This document shows, in pieces, positions 35,438 to 41,756 of a DNA stretch of 43,100 nt. A model generated the notes under the pieces. The model was not told the DNA's origin. It saw only the letters and a list, made by a program, of their open reading frames with translations, and did no database searches. A program made the position numbers and the translations under genes. The first letter of the stretch is position 1. Each line of letters starts with the position of its first letter. This stretch comes from Bacteroidales bacterium (GTDB taxonomy: Bacteria; Bacteroidota; Bacteroidia; Bacteroidales; P3): assembly GCA_024400415.1 (NCBI GenBank), contig JAKSMS010000014.1:1-43100 (forward strand), in the 5' to 3' direction.

Positions 35438-35471
35438 TTTGCAATATATAATAATTTATTTGTATTTTTGC
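35438..35471 (+). promoter_or_regulatory. Promoter of the cysteine-rich lipoprotein operon
   Basis: TTTG at 35438-35441 and TATTTTTGC at 35463-35471 are separated by 21 nt. Transcription would start near 35478, so the first usable ATG is at 35486 or 35492. Confidence 0.8.
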
Positions 35472-35491
35472 ATTTCGAAAGATTGATGAAT

Positions 35492-35755
35492 ATGAAAAGA
35501 AAAATAATGATAATTGGAGCCCTGGTGCTGGTGGTTCTTGCTGCCGGATGCTCTAAGAAGAAGAGTTGCCGCTGTGCTGTGAGAAGCAGCCAGGCCGACC
35601 CACAAAAGGTACGTATTATCACCGTTCCTAACAGCTTCAACTGCCTAAACATGAATTATGTCGATTACGATCAGAGCGAGATTCAGCAAGACTGGCGCGA
35701 CACGCTGCTCTGCACCGATTACGAATTCGATATTGACTCCATCTTTAACAAGTAA
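35492..35755 (+). CDS. Small four-cysteine lipoprotein A
   Basis: 87 residues from the ATG at 35492, chosen because it begins the signal peptide (MKRKIMIIGALVLVVLAAG-C). After the lipid-bearing Cys come SKKKS-C-x-C, then N-C-L-N-M mid-protein and L-C-T near the C-terminus, giving four cysteines for two possible disulfides. The same framework occurs in the next gene and in the gene at 38630, so these three are paralogues. I know no named family. It is first in a seven-gene operon, with a 6-bp gap to the next gene. Confidence 0.8.
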   Translation: MKRKIMIIGALVLVVLAAGCSKKKSCRCAVRSSQADPQKVRIITVPNSFNCLNMNYVDYDQSEIQQDWRDTLLCTDYEFDIDSIFNK

Positions 35756-35761
35756 GAACGT

Positions 35762-36040
35762 ATGAAAGCAAAAATATTCGCAATAGCCGGAGTGCTGATG
35801 CTGCTGGCATTCACCTCCTGCTCAAAGGGCAAATTCTGCAAATGCACTCTCGATAATCAGCAAAATGAGGTGCGCGTCATCAATGTCGACCATGGTACCA
35901 GCTGTAAGAAGATGACCCAGATCGGTATTGAAGAACAGTATACTCCAGAAGGCGACTCTGTACCCTCGCTTCGCCGCTTCATGGTGGATATGACTTGCGA
36001 GAAGATTAAGGCAAAAGATTACGATAGAAGCGATGAATAA
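35762..36040 (+). CDS. Small four-cysteine lipoprotein B
   Basis: 92 residues. The signal peptide is MKAKIFAIAGVLMLLAFTS-C. The cysteine pattern is lipid-Cys, SKGKF-C-x-C, S-C-K-K-M, then T-C-E-K, matching lipoprotein A. The middle shows QNEVRVINVDHGTS, parallel to KVRIITVPNSFN in lipoprotein A. The stop lies 8 bp inside the start of the next gene (MauE/DoxX-thioredoxin fusion), so translation of the lipoprotein and the membrane redox protein is coupled. Confidence 0.82.
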   Translation: MKAKIFAIAGVLMLLAFTSCSKGKFCKCTLDNQQNEVRVINVDHGTSCKKMTQIGIEEQYTPEGDSVPSLRRFMVDMTCEKIKAKDYDRSDE

Positions 36041-37115
36041 CCTCATCAAAAATATTGCTACGCTCCTAAAAATCTTTTTGGGAGCGTTCTTTGTTTTTTC
36101 GGCACTCAGCAAATTTGTTGATATCGACCGCCTAAATGTCTATATCTATAGCTTCGGTATGCTGCCATTCAACCTCTCGGTGGTGGCATCGTGGATGCTT
36201 ATCTCATTAGAACTTGTGCTGGGTGTGCTGTTGCTAACAAATCGCTGGCATAGGATTACCTGCATGGGCAATGTGCTTCTGCTGGCAGCCTTTTCGCTCT
36301 TTTTGTGCTATGCCCAACTGTCGGGCCGTACCGACAACTGTCATTGCCTTGGCGAGATGCTTCCTTTCAGCCCAGTCCAGTCGCTGCTCAAGAATGCTGT
36401 GCTGCTAGTGCTTGTGCTTTTTGTGTGGAAGTATGCCGATTCAGAACGACATATCCATGTGGCTATCCCTATTGCGGCTATGCTGCTCTGCGCTGGCGTC
36501 ATCTATTTTGCTGGCCGCTATGGCTGGCTGGCGATGACATATCTCGATTTCCAGTACTGTCTTACGCTGGCTGGCGTGACCCTCGTCCCAGCCATCTTGT
36601 TTTCTACCCGTTTCTGGAATCGATGGTGGAGCATAGTGGTTCTAGCTGGAGCCCCAGTTGTGGCCATATTTATTCTTTCTGTAGCAGCTAATTGGATTCA
36701 TTCCGAAACTGAGGCTATGGTGGATCAGCCTCGTTTTTCTCAGGCAGTCTCGCCTGATGGGCCGCTTGCAGCAGCTGCTATACCAGAAGGACGTAAGATT
36801 GTGTGCATCTACAGCCGCACCTGTTCCTATTGCCGCATGGCTTCTCAGAAGGTGTCTATGATTCAGCAGAGAAATGGGCTAGACGCCTCTTCGTTTGTGA
36901 CTATCTTCCCAGGTGACGACACTGTGGGCATCTCTGCCTTCTATGAGGCAGGCGTGAACCGCTATGCCGAATTCTTGCTGCCCGACACCACTACATTCTA
37001 TATTACCCGGGCCCAAGTGCCGCTGGTGATGCTGGTGGATGAGGGTAGGGTGGTGGAGGCCTTCAGCCATTCCGATATCTCCGAGTCCGCTATCGTAGAC
37101 TTTTTGAAGCAGTAG
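36033..37115 (+). CDS. MauE/DoxX-like membrane protein fused to a thioredoxin-fold domain
   Basis: 360 residues. The N-terminal 225 residues have about seven membrane helices and match DoxX/MauE. They begin LLKIFLGAFFVFSALSKFVD and carry the C103-x-C105-L-G motif (DNCHCLGE), which corresponds to the C-x-C-F-G of MauE proteins. Residues about 250-360 form a thioredoxin-like domain with C264-S-Y-C267 after the strand IVCIYSRT and a cis-Pro-like segment AQVPLVML near 325. Known MauE proteins support disulfide formation or maturation in the periplasm, and DoxX relatives use quinones. Here the fusion could pass electrons between the quinone pool and envelope thiols. It overlaps the gene for lipoprotein B. 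Confidence 0.82.
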   Translation: MNNLIKNIATLLKIFLGAFFVFSALSKFVDIDRLNVYIYSFGMLPFNLSVVASWMLISLELVLGVLLLTNRWHRITCMGNVLLLAAFSLFLCYAQLSGRTDNCHCLGEMLPFSPVQSLLKNAVLLVLVLFVWKYADSERHIHVAIPIAAMLLCAGVIYFAGRYGWLAMTYLDFQYCLTLAGVTLVPAILFSTRFWNRWWSIVVLAGAPVVAIFILSVAANWIHSETEAMVDQPRFSQAVSPDGPLAAAAIPEGRKIVCIYSRTCSYCRMASQKVSMIQQRNGLDASSFVTIFPGDDTVGISAFYEAGVNRYAEFLLPDTTTFYITRAQVPLVMLVDEGRVVEAFSHSDISESAIVDFLKQ

Positions 37116-37174
37116 CCCATCATGGCAATTTTTTTAGACCAGTTTCGTTATTATTATGATAATCGCTATTACTG

Positions 37175-38623
37175 ATGAATCCTTTTAAACAGCTTGCAGG
37201 TCAGACCGCCATCTATGGTTTGGGTACAATCCTCCCGAGGATGCTCAATTATCTGTTGGTGCCTCTCTATACACGTGTCTTTGTCCCAGAAATATATGGC
37301 CAGTTTACCGAACTCTATGCCTACATAGCCTTGCTTTTGGCGCTGCTCACCTATGGTATGGAGACCACCTTCTTCCGTCACGGAAAAGGTGATAATTTCC
37401 AGAAGGTGTATGGCAATATCATGACCAGCATTCTTTCTACCACGGTGGCTTTCCTGCTGCTGTTGGTGTTCCTCTATCCAGCGCTGTCGCGCCCTATCGG
37501 CTATGAGTCAAAGAGTGTTTATGTGCTGTTAACGGGTCTCGTGGTGGCTGCTGATGCCATCTCGGCAGTTCCCTTCTGTGTGCTACGCCAACAGAATAAG
37601 GCCAAGCGTTTTTCCTTTATCAAGATGGCTAACGTGTGCACCAATATTGCTCTCAACATCTTCTTTTTGGTGCTTGTGCCCGAGAGTTCAGCCCGCTGGA
37701 CTGATGTGCTGTTTGGCTCTGAAGCCGGAACCCTTACTTGGGTATTTGTCAGCAATTTGATGGCAAGCCTTCTGAATATCGTTCTTCTTTGGCCGCAGTT
37801 GCGCCAGATCAAGCCCCAATTCGATTGGACCCTCATGCGACAGCTGCTCAAATATTCGCTGCCCATTATGTTGATCAGCCTTATTGGCATGGTCAACGAG
37901 GTGGCCGACAAGATTGCTGTCAAGTATCTCTCCCCCGAGGGACAGGCTGATGCCCAACTGGGTATCTATGGCGCATGCTACAAGCTAGCAGTGTTGATGA
38001 CCATCTTTGTGCAGATGTTTCGCTATGCCAGCGAACCCTTCTTTTTCAGCCGTGCCGAGGACCGCAATTCTCCTCAACTTTTTGCCGACGTGATGAAGTA
38101 TTTCGTCATCTTCTGCTTGATCATCTTCCTGTTGATTACGCTCTATCTTGATTTCTTCGGCATTTTTATCGGCGCAGAATTCCGTGATGGACTGGGCATA
38201 GTGCCTATAGTGTTGCTGGCCAACCTATTCATGGGCGTTGTGTTCAACCTCTCCATCTGGTATAAGTTGAGCGACAATACTTCTAGCGGCACTGTGATTA
38301 CCGCTGTGGGCGCACTCATCACGCTAATCTGCCTCTTTGTGCTGATTCCTGTTATCGGATATTGGGGTGCAGCCATAGCCCATCTGGCCTGCTATACCGT
38401 CATGATGGTGATGTCCTATGTGTGGGGCCAGAAGGTATACCCAATACCATATAGTGTCAAGAAGATTCTCTTCTATATCTTCTTTGCGTTGGCCCTTTAT
38501 GGCGTCAGCGTGTTGCTGCGTCCTGCTAATGTGGTGCTTATGTACCTTTTCAATACTATATACATGTTGCTGTTTTGTGCTGTGGCCATCAAGATGGATC
38601 TCAGGCATGCACTTAAAAACTAA
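37175..38623 (+). CDS. Wzx-like polysaccharide flippase (MOP superfamily)
   Basis: 482 residues with about 12 to 14 membrane helices. The N-terminus FKQLAGQTAIYGLGTILPRMLNYLLVPLYTRVF is characteristic of the polysaccharide biosynthesis/flippase family, as are the QFTELYAYIALLLALLTYGMET segment and the MVNEVADKIAVKYLSPEG loop. It moves lipid-linked oligosaccharides across the inner membrane. It follows the MauE-thioredoxin gene by 59 bp and precedes lipoprotein C by 6 bp. No other glycan-assembly gene is in this operon, so its cargo is unknown. Confidence 0.9.
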   Translation: MNPFKQLAGQTAIYGLGTILPRMLNYLLVPLYTRVFVPEIYGQFTELYAYIALLLALLTYGMETTFFRHGKGDNFQKVYGNIMTSILSTTVAFLLLLVFLYPALSRPIGYESKSVYVLLTGLVVAADAISAVPFCVLRQQNKAKRFSFIKMANVCTNIALNIFFLVLVPESSARWTDVLFGSEAGTLTWVFVSNLMASLLNIVLLWPQLRQIKPQFDWTLMRQLLKYSLPIMLISLIGMVNEVADKIAVKYLSPEGQADAQLGIYGACYKLAVLMTIFVQMFRYASEPFFFSRAEDRNSPQLFADVMKYFVIFCLIIFLLITLYLDFFGIFIGAEFRDGLGIVPIVLLANLFMGVVFNLSIWYKLSDNTSSGTVITAVGALITLICLFVLIPVIGYWGAAIAHLACYTVMMVMSYVWGQKVYPIPYSVKKILFYIFFALALYGVSVLLRPANVVLMYLFNTIYMLLFCAVAIKMDLRHALKN

Positions 38624-38629
38624 TAAGAA

Positions 38630-38842
38630 ATGAAACGAAAAATAATACTTTTTGCAGCACTTTTAGCTGTGTTGGCCTTTTCGTCGTGCAACAAGCGTTG
38701 TCATTGCTATGGCTATGACCTCTCTCATACTTATTACACTAAAGAGGATCTTAAAGAGCTAGGCTATTCCTGCAAAGGAATGGAACAATATATGTATGGT
38801 ATCGTTTATTCTCTTTGTGAATACGACACCTCTGATTATTGA
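38630..38842 (+). CDS. Small four-cysteine lipoprotein C
   Basis: 70 residues, the shortest of three paralogues. The signal peptide is MKRKIILFAALLAVLAFSS-C. Then N-K-R-C-H-C, S-C-K-G-M and L-C-E-Y reproduce the C-x-C / S-C-x-x-M / C framework of lipoproteins A (35492) and B (35762). The segment between the first and second cysteine groups is shorter and Tyr-rich. The next gene starts 26 bp after its stop. It is the third cysteine-rich lipoprotein in one operon with a membrane redox protein. Confidence 0.8.
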   Translation: MKRKIILFAALLAVLAFSSCNKRCHCYGYDLSHTYYTKEDLKELGYSCKGMEQYMYGIVYSLCEYDTSDY

Positions 38843-38868
38843 TCACTATCTCCAACACTTCCAGACAT

Positions 38869-40722
38869 ATGATGAGACGCCAAGGATTCTTTTTCGTGAT
38901 TTGTGTCGTGCTGCTTCTTGTAGGATGCGGCAGAAAATATCAGGTTGCCGAATTCAACATTGTGCCAACTCCTGCATTCCAGATGCTGAAGGACGGCACC
39001 TTCACCCTCTCGTCAGAGACCTCCCTCTCGTTCGAGAATCTAGGACAGAACACCATCACTGCCAAATATGTGTCCCGCTCGCTGCGCAAGATGCATTTTA
39101 CCCCTACACTCTCTGGTAGTGCTCAGGGTGGCGGACTCCTCCTCCGCATCAACGACACCATCAACGAAGAGTTGGGCTCGGAAGGCTACCTCCTAGAGGT
39201 CACACCTCAGGGAATCACCATATCGGCCAATACCGAGCGCGGACTTTTTTATGGCTATCAGACCCTCCTTCAGATGCTCCCATCCGATATTGCTACCCGT
39301 AGCTACTCCAGTATCTCAATCCCGTTGTGCACTATCTTGGACCATCCGCGCTTCGAGTGGCGCAGCTGCCGTATCGACGCAACTCGTCATTTCTTTCCTA
39401 TCGACGACCTTAAGCGCGTGCTCGACGTTATGGCTATGTATAAGTACAATCGCATGGTGCTCTGCATTGCTGACGACTATGGTTGGCGAGTTGAGAGCGA
39501 ACTCTATCCAGCACTCACAACCATTGGGGCCATGCGGCCCGACCGCGAAGATGTCGAATGGGCACAGGCTGCTCCGCCTCAAACCGATGAGAAGAGTTCC
39601 TATGGCGGTTATTATTCCAAGGACGATATTCTTGAGCTGGTTCAATATGCTCAATCCCTTCATATCGAAATAATACCAGAACTCTCCATCCCTGCGCATT
39701 GTGCTGCATTGCTGGCCTCTTGTCCTGATATGGCCTGTCGTGGCAATCAGTATCAGGTTCAGTGCGGGCCTCATTCCGATACAGCAGCCGTACTCTGTTT
39801 GGGCAACGACAGTACCATTGCTCATGTGTTCAATCTTCTCGACGAGGTGGCTGGCCTCTTCCCAGGTTCATTTATCCATCTGGGCGGAGACACTGTGGCC
39901 CACTCTTCTTGGTCTTCCTGTCCTCGCTGTCGCTATCGTTGTCTTGAGAATTCTCTGCGCGAGCAGGCACTGCTTCAGGTATGGTTCGTCAATCAGGTGT
40001 CCACGCACTTCAAGGAGCAAAACAGGCAGGTGATCGTGTGGGATGACCTTTGCGCCGAAGGGCTCTCTTCCGATGTGCTCGTTATGGCACGCAACTCTTT
40101 GTCGGCAGGCATGAATGCTGCCAAGAGCGCCCATAAGGTGGTCATGTGTGTGTCTGATTATTGCGACTTCCATCGCTATCAGTCCGATCTTCGCTATCAG
40201 CCTAAGGCCGATTCGGGATTGGTGGGACTCCGTAAGGTATATGATTTCGACCCTGTTCCCACAGGTTCCAATACCCATCTAATTCCTAGCATTCAGGGCG
40301 GTCAGTGCCAGGTGTCAACATCTCATATCCACAATCTTGAGCAACTCGAATACATGTTGCTTCCGCGTATGTGCGCTATGTCCGAAGCCCTTTGGTCTCC
40401 TCGTGGCTGTAAGGACTGGCGCCAGTTCCGCTATCGCATAGAATACCACAAGGCTAGCCTTCTCGAAAAAGGGTTCCACGTATGCCCCGGGTCTTTCAAA
40501 CCTATCATGACGAAAACCACCTCCTCTCAAGGCAACTACCGCTTCATGCTAGAAACTGAGGTGATGAATACCTATGTCTTCTTTACCACAGATGGCTCAG
40601 AACCCACCCAGTCCTCTCAGATCTATGTTGCACCGGTCGACCTCGATTCTGGCACTGTGGTCAAGACGCTCTCCGTCTACAATGGCCAACAGCGTGAAGG
40701 CATTTATGAATACCATTTGTAA
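38869..40722 (+). CDS. GH20-like lipoprotein lacking the catalytic glutamate (probable pseudoenzyme)
   Basis: 617 residues from the ATG at 38869, which begins a lipoprotein signal (FFFVICVVLLLVG-C); an earlier TTG is rejected. The fold is that of GH20 beta-N-acetylhexosaminidase: an N-terminal GH20b domain (about 25-150), then the TIM barrel with RIDATRHFFPIDDLKRVLD and DDYGWR (202-207). The key motif H-x-G-G-D-E reads H337-L-G-G-D341-T342: the catalytic acid Glu is Thr. Other active-site positions also differ (PELSIPAHC for PEIDMPGH, VWDDL for GWDE, MARNS for the W-R-G block). There are 18 cysteines in the mature chain besides the lipid Cys. A C-terminal FN3/chitobiase-like domain ends the protein. 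Its stop overlaps the HydE start (TAATG). Confidence 0.85.
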   Translation: MMRRQGFFFVICVVLLLVGCGRKYQVAEFNIVPTPAFQMLKDGTFTLSSETSLSFENLGQNTITAKYVSRSLRKMHFTPTLSGSAQGGGLLLRINDTINEELGSEGYLLEVTPQGITISANTERGLFYGYQTLLQMLPSDIATRSYSSISIPLCTILDHPRFEWRSCRIDATRHFFPIDDLKRVLDVMAMYKYNRMVLCIADDYGWRVESELYPALTTIGAMRPDREDVEWAQAAPPQTDEKSSYGGYYSKDDILELVQYAQSLHIEIIPELSIPAHCAALLASCPDMACRGNQYQVQCGPHSDTAAVLCLGNDSTIAHVFNLLDEVAGLFPGSFIHLGGDTVAHSSWSSCPRCRYRCLENSLREQALLQVWFVNQVSTHFKEQNRQVIVWDDLCAEGLSSDVLVMARNSLSAGMNAAKSAHKVVMCVSDYCDFHRYQSDLRYQPKADSGLVGLRKVYDFDPVPTGSNTHLIPSIQGGQCQVSTSHIHNLEQLEYMLLPRMCAMSEALWSPRGCKDWRQFRYRIEYHKASLLEKGFHVCPGSFKPIMTKTTSSQGNYRFMLETEVMNTYVFFTTDGSEPTQSSQIYVAPVDLDSGTVVKTLSVYNGQQREGIYEYHL

Positions 40723-41756
40723 TGAATATAGTAGATAACATACGTACTACCCACAGTATCACTCGCGACCAGCTGGCCGAGCTGCTCGACACTCAGGACC
40801 AGGAACTTCTTGAATATCTCCGCCAGCAGGCCCAGCAGGTGGCTCAGTCTATCTATTCCAATAAGGTCTTCATTCGCGGACTTATAGAAATCTCCAGCTA
40901 CTGCAAGAATGACTGCCTCTATTGCGGACTCCGCCGCTCTAATCACGAGGCTGTGCGCTATCGCCTTACTGAAAACGAGATATATGCTGCTTGTGAGAAC
41001 GGATACACGCTTGGTTTTCGCACTTTTGTCATGCAAGGTGGTGAAGATGCCTGGTTCAACGACGACAATATGTGCCGCATAGTATCCACTATCCGTCGCC
41101 GCTATCCCGATTGCGCCATCACCCTTTCGCTTGGCGAACGCAGTCGCGAGAGCTATCAGCGTCTCTTTGATGCTGGCGCCAACCGCTATCTCCTGCGCCA
41201 CGAGACTGCCGACAAGTCCCACTACGCCCAGCTCCATCCCTCCGATATGTCCTTTGACAACCGCATACAATGCCTCTACAATCTAAAAGAAATAGGCTAT
41301 CAGGTGGGCTGCGGCTTCATGGTCGGTTCTCCATACCAGACCATTGATACCCTCTATCAAGACCTGCAGTTTATCCTCCGTCTGCAACCCCACATGGTGG
41401 GCATAGGACCTTTTGTCTCTACACGCCACACCGCGTTCGAAGATTTTTCCAATGGGTCTGTTGAGCGAACCCTACGCCTCCTATCCATCATCCGACTTCT
41501 CCACCCGCATGTGTTGATGCCTGCTACAACGGCTTTAGGTACTCTTCATCCTCGTGGGCGCGAGAAGGGAATATTGGCCGGAGCCAATGTCGTCATGCCC
41601 AATCTATCGCCCCTAGCTCACCGAAAGGACTATAATATATATGATAATAAGATATGCACGGGCGACGAGGCTGCGGAGTGCTACGTGTGCACATCTCAGC
41701 GCTTGAGTCAAATCGGCTACCAGGCCGTGGTCGACCGTGGCGATTTCAAGGAGTGA
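40722..41756 (+). CDS. hydE: [FeFe]-hydrogenase H-cluster maturation radical SAM enzyme HydE
   Basis: 344 residues. Radical SAM protein with the cluster motif C61-x3-C65-x2-C68 (YCKNDCLYCG). HydE-specific blocks follow: FIRGLIEISSYC, GFRTFVMQGGED, ITLSLGERS, NRYLLRHETA, VGCGFMVGSPYQT, GIGPFVS and MPATTALGT with NVVMPNLSP. With HydG and HydF it builds the H-cluster dithiolate ligand in the cytoplasm. Neither HydF, HydG nor a hydrogenase is encoded in this window. The C-terminal C-x-x-C (CYVC) may hold the accessory cluster. It is translationally coupled (ATG shares its A with the preceding TAA) to the GH20-like gene, an unexpected operon partner. Confidence 0.93.
   Translation: MNIVDNIRTTHSITRDQLAELLDTQDQELLEYLRQQAQQVAQSIYSNKVFIRGLIEISSYCKNDCLYCGLRRSNHEAVRYRLTENEIYAACENGYTLGFRTFVMQGGEDAWFNDDNMCRIVSTIRRRYPDCAITLSLGERSRESYQRLFDAGANRYLLRHETADKSHYAQLHPSDMSFDNRIQCLYNLKEIGYQVGCGFMVGSPYQTIDTLYQDLQFILRLQPHMVGIGPFVSTRHTAFEDFSNGSVERTLRLLSIIRLLHPHVLMPATTALGTLHPRGREKGILAGANVVMPNLSPLAHRKDYNIYDNKICTGDEAAECYVCTSQRLSQIGYQAVVDRGDFKE

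Follow-up and report, generated by a model that had tools for sequence, protein, structure and literature searches.

Organization of the locus

The analysed window, a stretch of 43,100 nucleotides from a Bacteroidales genome (contig JAKSMS010000014.1), contains seven closely spaced open reading frames (ORFs) that encode three small cysteine-rich lipoproteins (lipA, lipB and lipC), a membrane protein that joins a MauE domain to a thioredoxin-like (Trx-like) domain (mauE-trx), a polysaccharide flippase, a lipoprotein resembling glycoside hydrolase family 20 (GH20) and the maturase HydE (Table 1). An earlier sequence-only reading of this DNA had described seven genes behind a Bacteroidota-type promoter and proposed that they form a surface redox or glycan-binding system. 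The ORFs, which follow each other with gaps or overlaps of 6, -8, 59, 6, 26 and -1 bp, and the motif 5' of lipA that we take to mark such a promoter bear out the description of the operon. Comparison with related loci points to a smaller system within it. MauE-Trx and the lipoproteins with a CxC motif (two cysteines separated by one residue) are a real conserved unit of gut Bacteroidales.

Table 1. Features of the locus (positions in the window)
Feature	Position	Strand	Description
Promoter	35439..35470	+	Presumed Bacteroidota-type promoter of the operon; TTG -33 box, TATTTTTG -7 box, 5' of lipA
lipA	35486 (or 35492)..35755	+	Lipoprotein (P0001); lipid Cys followed by SKKKSCRC and two further Cys
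lipB	35762..36040	+	Lipoprotein (P0002), paralogue of lipA; lipid Cys followed by SKGKFCKC and two further Cys
mauE-trx	36033..37115	+	MauE profile; CxC, CxxC and Pro invariant in alignments; seven predicted transmembrane (TM) helices
Hairpin	36060..36087	+	Terminator-like, with T tail, in the first codons of mauE; possible attenuator; -20.3 kcal/mol, z -5.83
Flippase	37175..38623	+	Polysaccharide flippase between mauE-trx and lipC; PF01943, 45.7 bits; judged a neighbour
lipC	38630..38842	+	Third lipoprotein (P0005); lipid Cys followed by NKRCHC and two further Cys
GH20-like gene	38869..40722	+	Lipoprotein whose catalytic pair reads D-T; judged a neighbour
hydE	40722..41756	+	Radical SAM maturase of the [FeFe]-hydrogenase H-cluster; judged a neighbour

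Pairing of MauE-Trx with CxC lipoproteins

Related loci were collected by scanning named genome contigs with one MauE motif. Of the 159 loci found, the best 80 were used; by their titles they come from uncultured or metagenome-assembled Bacteroidales, Bacteroidia or Bacteroidetes, in many cases from ruminants. A match over 1000 bases defines the long form of the locus (30 loci) and the other 50 loci are referred to as the short form; some loci are cut by contig ends. Lipoproteins were recognized by a lipobox-like leader, a CxC motif and either 4-5 further cysteines (density count) or 3-5 (adjacency counts and the set of 124 lipoproteins described below). In 76 of the 80 loci, mauE-trx has a CxC lipoprotein as a same-strand neighbour, and the number rises to 78 when both strands are counted. 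The same-strand count missed L062, L070, L077 and L095; L062 and L070 have an opposite-strand lipoprotein and L095 has a CxC lipoprotein with an odd leader. The order lipA-lipB-mauE-lipC recurs in the long-form loci, where the motif rule, which is independent of sequence, found at least one CxC lipoprotein upstream of mauE in 30/30, two in 28/30 and one downstream in 29/30; tblastn additionally detected lipC in L039. Short-form loci have a same-strand CxC lipoprotein in 46 cases and an opposite-strand one in two more. The neighbourhood check suggested by the sequence-only reading thus held for the fusion and the lipoproteins, and it did not hold for the other genes of the operon, which are treated further below.

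Rule-matching lipoprotein ORFs are concentrated around mauE, with 147 in 392 kb-strand near the gene versus 3 in 2455 kb-strand elsewhere in the same loci (a count that missed L062, L070, L077, L095 and L097), and of the three distant ORFs two are accounted for by L062 and L070, where the lipoprotein neighbour is convergent. Clustering of all neighbours of at least 100 amino acids in a range of 8 kb left mauE-trx as the sole family common in both clades (27 long-form and 49 short-form loci). The flippase (25 and 2) and FtsK (24 and 1) are families of the long clade, and a protein of about 900 amino acids (13 and 5) and an ATP-binding cassette-type ATPase (2 and 7) are partly shared. The protein of about 900 amino acids (L050:498 onward, and its relatives) is secreted and lies roughly 7 kb upstream of mauE. 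As the longer lipoproteins split into separate neighbour clusters, the unity of the lipoproteins rests on their motif.

The pairing extends beyond the genus of the window. Among 12 genomes of six other genera, in which both the MauE and the Trx half were found, 11 of 13 MauE-Trx loci have one to three same-strand CxC lipoproteins, and the two loci that lack them both come from genus g11. This set overlaps with the 80 loci, L182 carrying the same lipoproteins as L060. A search with MauE-Trx gave a match to the fusion, or to the MauE half only, in 186 of 190 genomes of the same family. Of the 120 genomes in the genus to which the window belongs, 114 gave a strong match (E < 1e-22), where strength was read from the best E-values and need not mean both halves in every genome; the paralogue in the own genome reaches 7e-11 at best. 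The lipB profile matched in 151 of the 190 family genomes. Outside the genus, it matched in 30 of the 45 genomes whose MauE match was strong and in 3 of the 25 that had no strong match (Fisher p 1.2e-5). MauE paralogues that have the CxC and lack the CxxC were found beside a CxC lipoprotein in none of 20 loci (0/5 for L207-L211 and 0/15 for L130-L143 together with the own-genome paralogue L002). Among the matches listed in the open-licence PMC literature, no paper on the pairing of MauE-Trx with CxC lipoproteins was found.

Properties of the lipoproteins

Each of the three lipoproteins has four cysteines besides the lipid-bearing one, as the sequence-only reading had noted. All five are invariant in the alignments of lipA (A2, 31 rows), lipB (A3, 28 rows, from which L035 and L051 were excluded and in which L038 and L043 are absent) and lipC (A5, 23 rows, for which 22 loci were used); this invariance is partly selected for by the lipoprotein rules, except in rows found by tblastn. 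The lipB orthologues are merely 20-31% identical to the lipB of the window, yet keep all five cysteines. The shared pattern can be written as C-x-K/R-x(1-3)-C-x-C with two cysteines further on. Exactly four non-lipid cysteines, a number that the rules likewise favour, occur in 122 of 124 lipoproteins that come from 67 of the 80 loci (the window and 13 loci stand outside this set). A lysine or arginine at position +3 is also present in 122/124, versus 29/52 of the longer lipoprotein-like ORFs in the same loci. The three proteins had been described as paralogues. Profile comparison confirms this for lipA and lipB, which are homologous over their full length (97.7%, E 1.8e-12), and the match of lipC to both is confined to the first approximately 30 residues, comprising the leader and the CxC.

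Neither the three lipoproteins nor seven lipoproteins of relatives gave a Pfam or NCBIfam match above the curated cut-off, and a known lipoprotein family was ruled out as their identity on the grounds that no such match covers the mature part. A search for relatives of solved structure returned three weak matches for the lipA alignment and none for that of lipB. Surface-exported lipoproteins of Bacteroidota are described in passages of one study as carrying, for their export, either the signal C-x-K-(D/E)2 or its S/Q-acidic counterpart (PMC5080379). This signal, which comes from work on different families of the phylum and may differ here, was present in none of the 124 lipoproteins, nor could it be seen by eye in lipA, lipB or lipC of the window. 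At least two acidic residues at positions +2 to +6 were found in 10/124, and several lipoproteins of other genera, outside the 124-count, have more acidic N-termini. Surface display was rejected on the result for the export signal.

Properties of the MauE-Trx fusion protein

The sequence-only reading had described a MauE/DoxX-thioredoxin fusion with CHC and CSYC motifs. MauE-Trx passes the cut-offs of PF07291 (MauE; 79.7 bits, cut-off 27) and PF07681 (DoxX; 24.0 bits, cut-off 23.6). The CxC of the MauE part and the CxxC and a proline of the Trx-like domain are invariant in alignments A4 (49/49 rows, for which 48 of the 80 loci were used, L107 being dropped for an in-frame stop) and A1 (29 rows, without L024). 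The proline is presumably a cis-Pro. The CxxC reads CSYC in the window, whereas many relatives have CGYC. A tree of MauE groups the window with L032, L033, L036, L040 and L048 (support 100/98).

Before the Trx-like domain, a simple hydropathy scan counted seven helices for 23 of the 26 long rows and five for 17 of the 23 short rows, the remaining rows having four, six or eight. The odd number in both forms, together with a probably cytoplasmic N-terminus, would place the CxC and the Trx-like domain in the periplasm. A profile search against the PDB gave 22 weak matches (best E 5.7e-4, no single stretch passing alone), all with names of the thioredoxin superfamily except one called a putative lipoprotein. 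Pfam Thioredoxin reached an E-value of 0.059 in the relative L065 and gave no match for the window protein. VKOR (PF07884) was not among the Pfam matches of MauE-Trx at E-values up to 1. The BT_3928 family (NF045576) remained below its cut-off, with 66.9 bits versus 250 and a match restricted to residues 9-173.

Proposed function and alternatives

The architecture of MauE-Trx, its invariant cysteines and its tight genomic coupling to four-cysteine lipoproteins suggest with slightly better than even confidence that the four-gene core lipA, lipB, mauE-trx and lipC is a dedicated envelope thiol-disulfide module whose net effect is the oxidation of the lipoproteins via MauE-Trx. MauE-Trx is most likely a quinone-linked thiol oxidase and the lipoproteins its clients or partners. 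The MauE part would sit in the inner membrane with the CxC where a helix ends on the periplasmic side, and the Trx-like CxxC domain would lie on the same side. The CxxC may then exchange disulfides with the lipoproteins, whose CxC...C...C arrangement would suffice for two disulfides, and electrons would pass to the CxC of MauE and on to menaquinone, so that the lipoproteins become oxidized. The lipoproteins probably face the periplasm, either as clients that need disulfides or as mobile oxidants for other envelope proteins.

We infer the redox direction of MauE-Trx and the job of the lipoproteins. Quinone-linked oxidation is favoured because of the literature on MauE and because of the disulfide enzymes encoded in the genus. 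In 59 genus genomes, DsbB was found in none, VKOR in one and DsbA (PF01323) in one, other Trx-fold oxidants not having been searched for, and DsbD, which provides a reductive route, was found in 56. The sole VKOR-positive genome, G009, has two long frames (518 and 547 amino acids) on contig C125. How these Bacteroidales form periplasmic disulfides is therefore a plain gap. A conserved cassette in which the cysteines of the enzyme and of its partners are both invariant proposes an answer that can be tested directly. It also brings in a lipoprotein family without a Pfam or NCBIfam match above cut-off, and would matter for envelope proteins in bacteria that are abundant in the rumen and gut.

Several observations weigh against this interpretation. 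Completeness is 81% for the own genome and reaches at least 90% in 34 of the 59 genus genomes, which makes absences approximate. An even number of helices before the Trx-like domain was counted in 9 of 49 rows, and the thioredoxin assignment rests on the CxxC, the proline and weak profile matches. The pairing is also incomplete in both directions. No lipB-profile match was obtained in 15 of the 45 outside-genus genomes with a strong MauE match; seven of these 15 were inspected and all seven have CxC lipoproteins by motif. Conversely, five of the six genus genomes without a strong MauE match keep a weak lipB-profile match (E 4.7e-6 to 1.5e-4). G009 has MauE-Trx, and the search with the lipB profile came back empty. 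Nor is the pairing exclusive, as two lipoproteins of the family in the own genome are unlinked to mauE. These are the CxC/four-cysteine lipoproteins at L148:1498-1710, divergent from DsbD, and at L146:1507-1731.

A further point against a dedicated module comes from more distant relatives and leads to the reading that MauE-Trx oxidizes many envelope proteins in a general role, the lipoproteins being just its most frequent neighbours. Outside the family, in other Bacteroidota families, 14 of 15 MauE-Trx loci have no CxC lipoprotein neighbour, which implies that MauE-Trx has other substrates there, and the lack of DsbA, DsbB and VKOR in nearly all genus genomes would suit a general oxidase too. 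However, the pairing persists in the window's genus and in six others despite different surroundings, and we regard this explanation as somewhat unlikely. The lone exception among the 15 loci is L127, from another family of the same class, where a 68-residue lipoprotein (L127:1227-1433) lies directly upstream of MauE-Trx and has the exact layout of a lipid cysteine, five residues, CxC, C and C. The MauE-Trx proteins of other Bacteroidota families (L115-L129) have CGCFG or CGCMG together with a CxxC such as CEHC or CDHC. A more specific version of the oxidative module, in which MauE-Trx would generate disulfides with quinone and the CxC lipoproteins would be lipid-anchored thiol carriers that pass them on to envelope proteins and so do the work of DsbA, is put forward tentatively and is rather improbable as it stands.

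The module could also run in reverse, with MauE-Trx or DsbD keeping the lipoprotein CxC reduced and the lipoproteins relaying electrons to targets in the outer membrane or periplasm. The CSYC of the window and the CGYC of many relatives resemble what we take to be the DsbC-type motif and not the CPHC of DsbA, and the hosts are probably anaerobic, judging from their habitat. In addition, among the 30 best DsbD loci of the genus, drawn from matches in 56 genomes, 4 have a CxC lipoprotein next to DsbD, a count on which the idea that the lipoprotein family is generally coupled to DsbD was rejected. Against reduction, DsbD already supplies the reductive route, and the searches for DsbA, DsbB and VKOR turned up no other oxidase in almost any genus genome. 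The literature, moreover, ties MauE to disulfide formation, as a speculation voiced in passages on the beta-subunit of methylamine dehydrogenase (PMC7794033). The reductive direction is thus considered decidedly unlikely.

Still more doubtful is the reading that the four lipoprotein cysteines are ligands of a metal ion or of a copper or iron-sulfur centre, with MauE-Trx loading or protecting the site. A CxC with two further cysteines is a set that we take to be common among metal ligands, and the cysteines are invariant in A2, A3 and A5. On the other hand, no histidine is conserved at 80% in these three alignments, and no metal transporter was noticed when the sequence starts of the commonest neighbour families were inspected by eye.

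Transcription and neighbouring genes

The TAnnTTTG motif is present 5' of lipA in 25 of 29 loci (28 long-form loci and the window), compared with a mean of 2.97 in base shuffles, and is joined by the TTG -33 box in 7/29, compared with 0.36. It is absent within 120 bp upstream of each of the six internal genes. Nevertheless, a single transcript for all seven genes is uncertain because of the terminator-like hairpin inside the start of mauE, which has 12 pairs and a T-rich tail and starts 27 bases into the gene. Taken as a whole, the scan for terminator-like sites gave no excess over shuffles (7 vs 8.5), and hairpins of at least eight pairs in the first 130 bases were found in 7 of 31 long-form mauE genes, compared with 0.88 (maximum 3) in 100 synonymous shuffles. 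This hints at attenuation between lipB and mauE, which would yield lipoprotein in excess over the enzyme.

The flippase, the GH20-like protein and HydE are judged to be bystanders, mostly just neighbours of the module. Of the 30 long-form loci, 25 have the flippase and each of the 25 has it on the opposite strand. The loci grouped with the window in the MauE tree have lipC after mauE with the flippase on the other strand, so that the in-operon flippase of the window looks like a local arrangement. A flippase occurs in two of the 50 short-form loci, L064 and L067; they share the order mauE-flippase-lipC of the window, although the window sits in the long-form clade.

The GH20-like protein passes PF00728 with 271.9 bits (cut-off 22.3) and has 20 cysteines, 18 of them mature and non-lipid. 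The catalytic D-E pair is replaced by D-T in HLGGDT, and both the 18 mature cysteines and the missing catalytic Glu are as the earlier reading had them. Syntenic relatives keep D-E in 15 of 18 cases, with N-E in L033 and L036 and G-D in L039. The window protein and these three have lost the catalytic pair in different ways, which may reflect repeated decay or a change of role, and the window gene is a changed copy of a neighbour gene that keeps D-E in most relatives. Eight of its cysteines after the lipid cysteine are common to at least 17 of 19 aligned GH20 proteins, most of which have the catalytic pair, which makes the cysteine content partly a family trait. The gene is present in 18/30 long-form loci and in none of the 50 short-form loci. 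HydE passes the equivalog TIGR03956 (565.9 bits, cut-off 254.6), is encoded in 2/30 long-form and 0/50 short-form loci, and has an ordinary job available because HydG is encoded on another contig of the same genome. The joint action of all seven genes in a surface redox or glycan-binding machine, to which the tight spacing in the window and the nearby GH20 and HydE of L033 and L036 would lend some support, was rejected as scarcely credible on the strand of the flippase, the scatter of GH20 and HydE, the altered GH20 gene, the HydG encoded elsewhere and the lipoprotein export result; the glycan-binding role with flippase and GH20 as its parts is likewise unsupported.

Comparison with known systems

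Like the methylamine dehydrogenase maturation system of MauE and MauD, the latter a thioredoxin-like protein, the module has a MauE domain above the PF07291 cut-off and cysteine-bearing clients. Unlike that system, it has the Trx-like domain fused to MauE in one chain, extra TM helices and small lipoproteins as neighbours. The genes for MauE and MauD sit in the mau operon, according to passages of PMC2474590. The layout of MauE-Trx is analogous to that of the VKOR-thioredoxin fusions described in parts of PMC4555120, but the window protein has no VKOR match and one invariant CxC in place of the two cysteine pairs of VKOR. The BT_3928 family has a related MauE-like N-terminal half with a CxC, and a paralogue of this type is encoded in the own genome; the paralogues examined differ in lacking the CxxC and the neighbouring CxC lipoproteins.

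The mycobacterial DoxX-SodA-SseA complex also combines a DoxX-like membrane protein with a predicted thiol oxidoreductase, but its partners are different, and the passages of the source that describe it mention neither a fusion nor a lipoprotein set (PMC6930017). In candidate clusters for ribosomally synthesized and post-translationally modified peptides of Streptomyces, MauE homologues occur beside small cysteine-rich precursors with at least eight cysteines, as described in passages of PMC7794033. The neighbourhood of a MauE gene and small cysteine-rich proteins is thus common to both, whereas the partners are peptide precursors in an actinomycete there and four-cysteine lipoproteins here, where MauE is fused to a Trx-like domain and the host belongs to a different phylum.

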